From Terriglobus roseus (lineage in GTDB: Bacteria; Acidobacteriota; Terriglobia; Terriglobales; Acidobacteriaceae): a stretch of DNA of 64,000 nt. Below are positions 3,585 to 51,940 of the stretch, piece after piece (within the stretch, counting starts at the first letter, position 1; each line of letters begins with the position of its first letter). The notes below the pieces were generated by a model. It saw nothing but the letters and a program-made list of their open reading frames with translations, ran no database searches and was not told the origin of the DNA. The stretch spans positions 3,534,001-3,598,000 of the forward strand of contig NZ_LT629690.1 in the NCBI RefSeq assembly GCF_900102185.1. Reading direction: 5' to 3'. A program made the position numbers and the translations under genes.

Positions 3585-5567
3585 ATGCTTCGCGCCACGT
3601 CTCTCGCCCGCACCGCCGTTCTGCTCATGCCCATCGCCGCTCTCGCGCAGACCATGCAGCTCCGCCCGCACAGCATGTACGAGCCTCCCGCCGCAGCCGC
3701 TGCAAAGTCCCTCGCCGACTCCACCGCCGGTGTACCGCAGGACGAGCTCACCACCGGCGAAAAAACCAACTGGGAGAAGACCGGCCTCTACGACGAAACC
3801 GTCGCCATGATGCGTCTCTACGAGAAGCGCAGCAAGTTCATCAAGGTCATCCCCTTCGGCACCACGCCCGAAGGCCGCACCATGTACGCCGCCATCATCA
3901 GCAAAGACAAGGCCTTCACACCCGAAGCCGCACACAAGACCGACAAGGCCGTGATCCTCATCCAGAGCGGCATCCACTCCGGCGAAATCGAAGGCAAAGA
4001 CACAGCCATGATGCTCATGCGCGACATGGCCGTCACCAACCATCCCAAGCAGGCCGCATGGCTCGACAAAGCCATCTTCGTCGTCATCCCCCTCTACGAG
4101 ATCGACGGCCACGAAGACCGCAGCCCCTACAACCGCGCCAACCAGAACGGCCCTGACATCACCGGCACACGCCCGCAGGAACAGCAGCTCAACCTCAACC
4201 GCGACTACATCAAGGCCGACGCCCCCGAAACACGCAACTTCCTCAAGCTCTACAACACATGGCTGCCTGACTTCATGTTCGACAACCACGTCACCGACGG
4301 CGCCGACTACCAGTACGACGTCACCTGGGACATGACGCACCACGACGACATCGGCCCCGGCTCACGCGACTGGGTCAACTCCCGCTTCATCCCGCAGCTC
4401 AACAAACGCATGGAAGCCGACGGCCATCTCGTCTCGCCCTACGGCGCTCTCCGTGGCGACGGCATGGGCTTCGCCGGTGGCGGCGGCAGCCCACTCGCTC
4501 CTCCCGCAGGTGGCGCACGCGGTAACGGCGGCGGTGGTGGTGGTGACGACCGCGCACGTCGCGCTGCCCCAGCCAGCACCAACGGTCAGCGAGACTTCAA
4601 CGTCGAAGTCTTCTCCCCGCGCTACTCGCACTACTGGTCCGGCGCACGCAATCGCCCATGCCTATTGGTCGAAACGCACTCGCTCAAACTTCCCAAGACA
4701 CGCGCATGGTCCAACTACGACATCATGGTCCACTCCATCGACATCGTCACCGAAGACCCGCAGGCCCTGCGCAAAGCCGTGCGTGACAGCGACGCAGCAG
4801 ACGCAGCACTCGCCGGCAAGCGCGATCAGGAGATGTTCCTCGGCGGCAAAACCGCGGCCACCTCGCACCCCATCATGTACCACTCGCTCAAGCGCGGCAC
4901 AGACGTAAGCCCCATCACCGGCAAACCCGTGCAACACTTCACTGCTGAGAAAGACGACTTCATGGTCAACATGCACGACGGCGTCGACACCACCGCCTCT
5001 GCACCCGTCCCCGCAGGCTTCCTCATCCCCATCGCATGGAAGTCCATCGCAGACGAACTTGCTCTGCAAGGCGTCGTCGTGGAGAAGACCACCAAGGACC
5101 TCAGCGACCAGACCTTTGAAACATGGCGATTCACCGACATCACCAAGCAGAACTTCCCCTTCGAAGGCCGCACGTTTACTGACTACAAACTGACGCCGGT
5201 CAAAGAGAAGATGCACATGCCCGCAGGCAGCTATTACATCCCCATGAACCAGCCGCGAGCCCGCATCATCATGGCTATGCTGCACCCCGCCGCACCCGAC
5301 GCATTAGTGCGCTGGGGCTTCTTCGATAACATCTTCGAACGCATGGGCCGCATCGGCGCAGCCGAATACCTGAGCGTGCCCATCGCCACCAAAGAAGCCG
5401 CTGACCACCCCGAACTCTGGAAAGAATTCCAGTCCAAAGTAGACAGCGACCCAACCTTCGCCAACGACCCCGACGCCCGCCTCAAATGGTGGATCGAACG
5501 CAGCAACTACCAACCCTCAGCAGTAAACAAATACCCAATAGCCGAAGTCTGGACCAAGAACTGGTAA
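3585..5567 (+). CDS. Secreted M14-family zinc metallocarboxypeptidase
   Basis: A protein of 660 residues from the ATG at 3585, which has GGAAGGA eight bases upstream and opens with a signal peptide (MLRATSLARTAVLLMPIAALAQ). M14 features seen: the zinc site HSGEIEGKD near residue 130, substrate-binding NLNRDYIKADAPETR near 205, DNHVTDG near 232 (third ligand region) and a probable catalytic Glu in LLVETHSLK near 360. M14 enzymes remove C-terminal residues from peptides. An unusual Gly-rich stretch (GFAGGGGSPLAPP and onward, about residues 290-330) interrupts the catalytic domain. About 270 further residues follow, longer than a minimal M14 domain. It probably digests exogenous peptides outside the cytoplasm. 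It stands alone between two minus-strand genes. Confidence 0.87.
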   Translation: MLRATSLARTAVLLMPIAALAQTMQLRPHSMYEPPAAAAAKSLADSTAGVPQDELTTGEKTNWEKTGLYDETVAMMRLYEKRSKFIKVIPFGTTPEGRTMYAAIISKDKAFTPEAAHKTDKAVILIQSGIHSGEIEGKDTAMMLMRDMAVTNHPKQAAWLDKAIFVVIPLYEIDGHEDRSPYNRANQNGPDITGTRPQEQQLNLNRDYIKADAPETRNFLKLYNTWLPDFMFDNHVTDGADYQYDVTWDMTHHDDIGPGSRDWVNSRFIPQLNKRMEADGHLVSPYGALRGDGMGFAGGGGSPLAPPAGGARGNGGGGGGDDRARRAAPASTNGQRDFNVEVFSPRYSHYWSGARNRPCLLVETHSLKLPKTRAWSNYDIMVHSIDIVTEDPQALRKAVRDSDAADAALAGKRDQEMFLGGKTAATSHPIMYHSLKRGTDVSPITGKPVQHFTAEKDDFMVNMHDGVDTTASAPVPAGFLIPIAWKSIADELALQGVVVEKTTKDLSDQTFETWRFTDITKQNFPFEGRTFTDYKLTPVKEKMHMPAGSYYIPMNQPRARIIMAMLHPAAPDALVRWGFFDNIFERMGRIGAAEYLSVPIATKEAADHPELWKEFQSKVDSDPTFANDPDARLKWWIERSNYQPSAVNKYPIAEVWTKNW

Positions 5568-8584: not shown

Positions 8585-8674
8585 AAAGACCAGATATCGG
8601 TATCTCCGAACCTACCGCCAGAAATATCTGGGAGCTATGGGTAGATGGCCTGCGTGACTTACGTTTTCACGAAA

Positions 8675-8930
8675 ATTCCTGTCAAGCCCCCTGAATCACT
8701 TAAACCACTCATTCCAATACAAATACAGTTGGCATGTTTTCCTGGCAGCCTCTCTACAATAGAAACAGGGACGGATTCGCAATCGCTGGCTGGGTGAATC
8801 GTCACACTTAACCTCTTTAGAAAGACGATTTTGCCCCTAACCCCAATCGGCAGACGATTTTACAGACACTCGCGCCGTAACTCCAATAGAAAGACGATTT
8901 TGCAAAAACAGGGGGGAGGGGTACCCACCG
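8675..8930 (+). repeat. Dispersed intergenic repeat, copy A
   Basis: This 256-nt block in the gap between flippase and ABC permease is homologous to 51681-51940. Shared parts in order: TCCTGTCAAGCCCC; a promoter-like block TTGGCA (8729-8734), 20 nt, TACAAT (8755-8760); three 25-nt units each ending AGACGATTTT (8808-8832, 8837-8861, 8877-8901); and a G-rich GGGGGGAGGGGTACCC tail. Units 1 and 2 are 4 nt apart, and units 2 and 3 are 15 nt apart. No open reading frame of note is present and no transposase is nearby. The rest of the gap from 8585 holds nothing else I can identify. Confidence 0.8.
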
Positions 8931-50670: not shown

Positions 50671-50716
50671 TCAAGTGCCAAATGTTTAGTGAATGCACGA
50701 GGTACCGGCGAACCAA

Positions 50717-50873
50717 GCGCCAAAGGCGCGACCAGATATTAGCCTAGGCCGAAGGCCTAGGTAGGTCCGCCTCGTAAAACCCAAGGGCCAAAGGCCCGCT
50801 CTATCCTGCCTGCCACAAATCTGCCATCGCACGAAGTGCGACCACGCGTAGCGTCGAGAACGGTACGAAGTAC
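50717..50873. repeat. Cluster of six short hairpins with 3-nt loops
   Basis: Consecutive inverted repeats, each with a triplet loop: GCGCC-AAA-GGCGC (50717-50729), CCTAGGCC-GAA-GGCCTAGG (50743-50761), GGGCC-AAA-GGCCC (50785-50797), TCGCAC-GAA-GTGCGA (50827-50841), ACGC-GTA-GCGT (50844-50854) and GTAC-GAA-GTAC (50863-50873). The cluster ends against the stop codon of the minus-strand gene. Stems differ in sequence, but the loops are nearly always AAA or GAA. Confidence 0.75.
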
Positions 50874-51578: not shown

Positions 51579-51680
51579 AGATCTCGTTTCCTTCAAAGCG
51601 ATTTCAGAAAAGGGGATGCAAAACAAAATGCAGACCCATCCTACTCGACTTCAAAGAACTGAAATCCCCAACAAACCAAA

Positions 51681-51940
51681 ATCCTGTCAAGCCCCTCATC
51701 CGCACAACCCCAACAAACCAAAAGAAATAGAGTTGGCATGGTATTTCCTCGAACTCTCTAAAATAGAAATAGGCAATCAAGCCCGTCGTGTGACCAACTC
51801 GGGAGCGCTGCCAGTAACTCCTTTAGAAAGACGATTTTGCCCCTAACCCCAATGGGCAGACGATTTTACGGCCACCAGCGCCGTAAACCCAATCAATAGA
51901 CGATTTTAGGAAAACAGGGGGAGGGGGGTACCTCCCGATG
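51681..51940 (+). repeat. Dispersed intergenic repeat, copy B
   Basis: Homologous to copy A at 8675-8930. It opens with ATCCTGTCAAGCCCC, then TTGGCA (51733-51738), a 20-nt gap and TAAAAT (51759-51764). Three 25-nt units follow at 51814-51838, 51843-51867 and 51883-51907. It ends in GGGGGAGGGGGGTACCTCCC. Spacings between units (4 and 15 nt) equal those in copy A, although the flanking sequence is diverged. The copy lies in the gap before tRNA-Arg, oriented toward it. Confidence 0.8.

Follow-up and report, generated by a model that had tools for sequence, protein, structure and literature searches.

A dispersed promoter-like element of Terriglobus carries a three-unit array with genome-specific core spellings

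Two stretches of a 64,000-nt segment of Terriglobus roseus DNA (the window) share three 25-nt units at fixed spacing, and these units form the 3′ module of a longer, promoter-like element that is dispersed over the whole chromosome, its unit cores spelled alike within a genome and differently between genomes. Our first choice among the explanations, tentative and with somewhat less than an even chance of being right, is a promoter-like non-coding unit whose array offers three sites to one trans-acting factor per genome and whose transcript would serve as a multi-site decoy. Repeats scattered over bacterial genomes tend to be dismissed as passive debris; in this case, rigid geometry together with a genome-wide difference in spelling provides a handle, suggesting that the copies are read by something. 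Among the papers listed by our literature searches, we found none that describes this repeat.

Results

Two copies in the window

Copy A occupies positions 8666-8930 and copy B positions 51670-51936 of the window, both on the + strand, as judged from the sequence and from nhmmer matches to an element model of the genus. Units 1, 2 and 3, located by sequence and motif matches, lie at 8809-8833, 8838-8862 and 8878-8902 in copy A, with 4 and 15 nt between neighbors, and at 51815-51839, 51844-51868 and 51884-51908 in copy B. The motif AGACGATTTT starts at 8823, 8852 and 8892 in copy A and at 51829, 51858 and 51898 in copy B, and the offsets of 29 and 40 nt reported in the initial annotation are thus confirmed as identical in the two copies. 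With one mismatch allowed, AGACGATTTT had 12 matches in the window versus 2.87 expected, a number reached in none of 100 shuffles.

The initial annotation had described two copies, each consisting of three units. The count holds inside the window and gives way to 48 elements genome-wide; the three units are present, while the element extends beyond them and has a promoter-like module at its start. The order of parts is a distal box CTGTCAAGCCCC, an A-rich stretch, a promoter-like region, a variable middle, the three units and a G-rich end. In copy A, the distal box (8679-8690), read in the sequence, is kept in an alignment of 37 copies and is seen at many loci of other genera. The promoter-like region (8729-8760), conserved in the same alignment, runs from TTGGCA (8729-8734) to TACAAT (8755-8760) with a 20-nt spacer, and is followed by a middle that by eye can form a hairpin (8770-8803, arms 8770-8778 and 8796-8803) and, beyond the units, by the G-rich end GGGGGGAGGGGTACCC (8911-8926; sequence and 37-copy alignment). 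In copy B, the distal box (51684-51695; sequence and 37-copy alignment) precedes a promoter-like region (51733-51764; sequence and promoter-core pattern) running from TTGGCA (51733-51738) to TAAAAT (51759-51764), again with a 20-nt spacer, a middle judged hairpin-capable by eye (51772-51812) and the G-rich end GGGGGAGGGGGGTACCTCCC (51917-51936, from the sequence). Promoter-like module, by-eye hairpin and G-rich end are thus common to both copies. MFE folds of the whole stretch of copy A and of copy B contained pairs other than the middle hairpin and were not better than those of shuffles (z -0.58 and -0.78, respectively).

Copies across the chromosome

Across the whole genome (G000), a single contig of 4.85 Mb, strict motif pairs gave 38 matches, 19 per strand, versus none for a reversed control pattern; they represent 37 elements, L024 among them carrying a fourth unit. 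A looser terminal-unit pattern returned further copies, and a profile search gave 48 elements in 49 rows, two of these being parts of the four-unit element; the outermost elements sit at 54 kb and 4848 kb on the 4852-kb chromosome. When the 37 copies found first were aligned together with long flanks, a conserved stretch of about 250 bp stood out between flanks that have diverged. The promoter-like part of the consensus reads TTGGCATG..TATTTCC, then a -10-like TAAAATAG, and the 3′ end reads AAAAACAGGGGGGAGGGGG(TACC). A second common piece, GGCGTCGAGAACCGCACGAAGTG-like, lies directly 5′ of the distal box at L012, L014, L024 and L037, with a variant at L035; at L227 (148-248), the third unit is inverted and the G-rich end is missing.

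The pattern TTGGCAN{17,23}TARAATAG matched 25 times in G000, each time just 5′ of a three-unit module; copy A, with its TACAAT, is outside these 25. Across the DNA stretches examined, whose loci overlap and whose elements repeat, 156 of 157 matches to the promoter module had an array on the same strand 35-310 nt 3′, and the remaining one (L093) is followed by a single-unit variant. The designation as a putative promoter rests on resemblance: the 20-nt spacer between TTGGCA and TAAAAT is above the usual 17, and the promoter-like sequences vary between lineages. At some loci (L064, L076, L085, L071), boxes occur that resemble the boxA motif.

The element middle, variable in sequence, is in many cases a hairpin. 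Folding of the 55 nt that precede unit 1 is better than that of shuffles, both in the genus (mean z -1.72; 44 of 94 elements below -2) and outside it (mean z -1.27; 21 of 75 below -2), and the hairpin can be swapped for an unrelated one between matching copies (L039/L151). At L171, an ORF encoding an ABM domain (27.9 bits versus a cut-off of 23.1) makes up the middle (3744-4049); it starts just 3′ of the -10-like TAAAAT, and the TAA of unit 1 is its stop codon, giving the look of a cassette in a slot. The G013 copy at L171's right flank has a hairpin in its place. The initial statement that no ORF accompanies the repeat is therefore right in general, with this one known exception. Terminator-like hairpins on the + strand are found in the promoter-to-array gap of 13 of 94 genus and 12 of 75 other elements, compared with 12 of 840 control windows, and speak against transcription of the array in those copies; on the - strand, the corresponding numbers are 40 of 94 and 14 of 75.

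The array itself folds little above shuffles, as open sites would (mean z -0.66 and 13 of 94 below -2 in the genus; mean z -0.27 and 8 of 75 below -2 outside). RNAalifold on 51 array sequences returned no pairs and no conserved structure, and an RNA structure of the array was dropped on this ground and because the coupled columns hold like letters at corresponding positions of the units rather than base pairs. Unit 2 paired with the G-rich end in single MFE folds only; this pairing lacked covariation support, as did the idea of a unit as an inner hairpin (TAA...TTR), likewise dropped. In the window and 16 loci, no Rfam family covered an element at the gathering cut-off; at E up to 5, nine loci yielded three unrelated families, all of which lie on the - strand of the L024 element and score far short of their cut-offs (Leu_leader, 24.9 of 50 bits; SorY, 23.4 of 111; isrJ, 22.1 of 37; E 0.32-4.5).

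Constraint on spacing and sequence

Among 70 elements picked for diversity out of 170 distinct ones, the distance between units 1 and 2 was 29 nt in 62, 30 in seven and 31 in one. Units 2 and 3, measured TAA to TAA, were 40 nt apart in 15, 41 in 31, 42 in 22 and 43 in two; measured core to core, seven of the 70 have a shortened third unit. The 94 distinct genus elements divide into 29/40 (75), 29/41 (15), 28/40 (two), 29/42 (one) and one unparsed. The second spacing is thus looser than the first (in the genus, 40 in 77, 41 in 15, 42 in one and one unparsed of 94), and the stretch separating units 2 and 3 is nearly devoid of information in the 70-element alignment. Selection on spacing, as initially proposed, is supported by a first spacing that stays at 29 nt in 62 of 70 elements and a second confined to 40-43 nt across nearly informationless sequence; the freely drifting spacing named beforehand as counter-evidence was not seen. 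Helical phasing was considered and dropped, as 29 and 40-42 are no clean multiples of a turn.

Elements of G000 were compared with those of the sister genome G013 in 31 rows; identity was computed over 24 rows, leaving out seven rows of six copies that are split, duplicated or rearranged. Units 1, 2 and 3 were identical at 0.968, 0.910 and 0.938 of positions, respectively, above the spacer before unit 3 (0.792) and the upstream flank (0.638). The G-rich end scored 0.898, the stretch from -35 to -10 0.887, the middle 0.755 and the distal-box stretch 0.717, the last at fixed offsets and so blurred by length changes. The downstream flank, probably mostly coding, scored 0.925.

Genomic positions and neighbors

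A G013 element lies beside a flank of 28 of the 37 G000 elements, 16 matched by both flanks and 12 by one. The copy B site is common to G000, G013 and G007, with orthologous copies in the latter two, and at L175 G000 and G013 share both flanks and G007 the right flank. No empty site was found: at copy B and L175, the sites in G013 and G007 are filled, and the surroundings of copy B are not kept in the other genomes. Copy A, L159, L163, L171 and L177 lie at rearrangement breakpoints between the sister genomes, as judged against G013 loci. Copy A and L177 match one common G013 counterpart on different flanks and therefore seem to stem from a rearrangement that duplicated the element.

Gene neighbors were taken from a simple gene caller that is blind to tRNAs. 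The downstream gene is convergent in 29 and on the same strand in 19 of the 48 G000 elements, and lies within 100 bp in 38. No gene family among 742 called proteins recurs widely beside elements (at most four genome groups), although this clustering missed a family of small Cys/His proteins (CRH...C...CYFH). Its gene lies on the same strand about 60-180 bp 3′ of the element at L038/L146, which are orthologous (L038 5250-5714), L323, L326, L243 and L251, and on the element's other side at L314; L038, L323 and L326 may go back to a single ancestral site. The protein matched no Pfam or NCBIfam model at the model's cut-off (zf-primase, 15.9 bits, below 28.8). As a candidate reader of the array, this gene is a lead only, and the link may be chance.

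Distribution

A sequence-only array profile (R1; E ≤ 0.001, strict filters, at most nine matches scored per genome) detected the array in 197 of 398 genomes and 38 of 79 genera of its family, bearing out the suggestion of a family of such repeats. In a sample of the phylum, 18 of 297 genomes had an R1 match, all 18 inside the same family. Within the genus the array is patchy: with filters relaxed and E values up to 0.1 admitted, nine of 19 genomes had rows, numbering 49 in G000, 48 in G013, 38 in G007, 33 in G011, 24 in G005, 23 in G001, 20 in G004, 11 in G014 and three, weak ones (best E 0.005), in G018. Further copies in related genomes, the lack of which the initial annotation had named as counter-evidence, are accordingly present across the family, but the other 10 genomes of the genus, some of them incomplete assemblies, had no array match with this profile at E up to 0.1. 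The array's function is therefore dispensable. A search for a reader could draw on a natural panel of congeners that either spell the cores differently or yielded no copies.

Scanning named genomes with a pattern yielded 41 stretches, of which many are chance matches in unrelated phyla; family-like matches came from Edaphobacter, Granulicella and Bryocella, in a single-unit form, and from an Acidobacteriaceae MAG (L099), in the three-unit form.

A genome-specific spelling of the unit cores

In the 70-element alignment, five of the six column pairs with the strongest coupling (21-91, 18-47, 19-48, 50-91 and 21-50) link a position to its equivalent in another unit and do not reflect base pairing; the sixth (80-86) lies inside unit 3. 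In a first test on core positions 17-19 and 21, agreement between units was 0.814 within an element, 0.797 between elements of one genome and 0.566 between genomes, and within-genome shuffles reached the same-element value (30 elements) in 549 of 2000 trials.

A larger test covered 117 elements from 22 genome groups, drawn mostly from the top profile matches, with duplicates and rows of more than 35 gaps dropped, G000 and G007 merged (30 elements) and G013 left out. Over core positions 16-21, units 1 and 2 were identical at 0.814 within an element, 0.792 within a genome, 0.589 within a genus and 0.573 between genera; the within-genome and within-genus values were 0.699 versus 0.595 for units 1 and 3 and 0.678 versus 0.573 for units 2 and 3. 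The left arm (positions 1-6) had no genome effect (0.759, 0.756 and 0.755), nor had the TTTR end; positions 7-10 were mixed, and at positions 11-15 a weaker effect appeared for two of the three unit pairs. None of 1000 free permutations per unit pair reached the observed core value, and among permutations within the genus 0, 0 and 1 of 1000 did so, both statistics ignoring phylogeny. Since units of different rank in different elements agree, amplification of one element is insufficient alone as an explanation.

Two spellings of the core are GACGATTTT and CTAATTTTT. Over its 48 elements, G000 has 133 occurrences of GACGATTTT and none of CTRATTTTT, while seven distinct elements read in G011, an assembly marked as 10% contaminated, have none of GACGATTTT and 19 of CTRATTTTT. 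To compare matching sites, 17 elements from G011, G005 and G004 were taken with their surroundings, 19 kb in each case, and set against G000 stretches. On gene order and orientation, four G011 elements could be matched to G000 positions; the rest were non-matching or unplaceable. Two sites are firm (L365/L163 and L358/L377), with matching genes on both sides and the same gene directly downstream; L363/L159 is matched on one side only and could equally be L171, the cores of which are the same as those of L159, and L364/L172 is matched via genes some way off, with extra DNA between. At the four sites, GACGATTTT is found in 12 of 12 G000 units versus CTRATTTTT in 11 of 12 G011 units (6 of 6 versus 5 of 6 at the two firm sites), and arms and first spacing are alike across all four pairs. 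L365 and L366 of G011 are near-identical element stretches with the same neighbors at the same distances, and were counted once.

Discussion

Agreement of the cores inside a genome, together with their difference from one genome to another, points, on the sequences compared, to one reader per genome as the simplest account. We therefore favor the reading introduced above: the 3′ module would provide three recognition sites for one trans-acting factor per genome, a single factor presumably reading all sites; the array would be transcribed from the promoter-like module, and the transcript could hold the factor as a multi-site decoy, with a logic like that of CsrB. The decoy transcript is our first choice because the array is tied to the promoter-like module and is open. 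With slightly less confidence, we consider it possible that the dispersed promoter-like three-site arrays form a system without known counterpart, serving one fast-changing factor, and that their sites were rewritten in place; a shift in specificity would then have rewritten dozens to more than 100 sites per genome, with geometry and arms fixed. If true, this would be an instance in which one can trace a recognition code shifting in step at dozens of dispersed sites.

A different reading, unlikely in our estimate, is that the array acts as DNA, its three units being sites for a nucleoid-organizing, partition-like or roadblock protein, while the nearby promoter and hairpin set the array's local state or are controlled by it. 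It comes close behind because some copies have terminator-like hairpins before the array. The dialect and the cores at matching sites fit it equally well, the copies are spread over nearly the entire chromosome, and unit 3 of L227 is recognizable despite its inversion, although L227 is a single case that lacks the G-rich end. A DNA site would, however, have no need of the close, same-strand position 3′ of a promoter-like module found in 156 of 157 cases.

Some spreading of elements must have happened. Many similar copies per genome, their presence in nine genus genomes (3 to 49 rows) and absence from the matches in 10, and the exchange of the middle between matching copies, once for an ORF, could all be seen as marks of a non-autonomous mobile element, its units being recognized by a transposase or recombinase whose gene lies elsewhere, and the dialect tracking enzyme specificity. 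We regard this as improbable. Direct repeats of at least 5 nt at the ends, the target-site duplications of a MITE, occur in 4 of 34 copies, not above chance (shuffled mean 2.07, maximum 8), in a test with element ends set by rule that could miss short duplications. By eye, there are no terminal inverted repeats, the left CTGTCAAGCCCC and the right GGGGGAGGGGGTACC not being inverted copies. The 156 promoter-array pairs examined, which come from a smaller part of the DNA of these genomes and have middles of at most 310 nt, include no transposase-bearing relative between the same ends; such a relative may lie elsewhere. Further against mobility, 28 of 37 G000 elements are flank-matched in G013, the sites of copy B and L175 are also common, and cores differ at matching sites. 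The single Y1 transposase gene detected in G000, Y1 being the one transposase family looked for, has no unit or element end in its 3.3-kb locus; copy B had no match in the phage or plasmid records searched, and the tail pattern none in the viral contigs scanned. Among the three readings initially offered, a binding array within a promoter-like unit therefore fits best and a small RNA is possible, whereas a miniature mobile unit is weakened by chance-level duplications, positions common to species and differing cores at matching sites.

The reader of the cores could also be another RNA that pairs with them and changes along with them, and the change of six adjacent core letters as a block would suit this; with the flanking T run and the left arm constant while the core changes, we consider it very unlikely. 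Least credible of all are neutral repeats homogenized by ectopic gene conversion without any reader: repeats do lie at some rearrangement breakpoints between sister genomes, but conversion should carry the arms along and homogenize the left arm and TTTR end too, which does not fit an effect found in the core and more weakly in positions 11-15, and the units are more conserved than the spacer between them.

Several known systems share traits with the element that we interpret as a decoy-encoding array. CsrB and RsmY are decoy RNAs in which one transcript carries several equal sites for one protein, as proposed for the three-unit array. In CsrB, which exists in few copies, these sites are GGA motifs in hairpin loops; the consensus units lack GGA, RNAalifold found no pairs that would place one in a loop, and there are up to 48 elements per genome. 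A CRISPR array, with unique spacers of similar length between its repeats and with cas genes, was set aside as the units are only 4 and 15 nt apart, and a REP/RAYT system because the units are direct repeats within a 250-bp element and the Y1 locus contains neither unit nor element end.

QMITE1 and QMITE2 of Coxiella, MITEs with 45 and 78 copies in one genome, contain promoter parts, and some act as small RNAs; Correia repeats are named beside them (PMC5896051). The elements described here resemble both in being dispersed copies with promoter parts, but differ from these MITEs in having no above-chance target duplications, and the passages seen of PMC5896051 do not mention genome dialects. REP elements with a GTAG or CGTC tag are 20-40-bp palindromes, many plausibly transcribed, according to the part of PMC3733652 consulted; like ours they are short dispersed repeats, but ours measures about 250 bp and holds three direct units whose spacing is nearly fixed. 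Acido-1 and Acido-Lenti-1 are described, in the part of PMC2864571 consulted, as candidate non-coding RNAs of Acidobacteria, and in our Rfam searches neither matches an element. Acido-Lenti-1 does match elsewhere, at 50716-50761 of the window (- strand), L157 14067-14112 and L158 6092-6137, each with 38.2 bits; these matches are perhaps a dispersed repeat themselves, and one of them lies about 0.9 kb from copy B.
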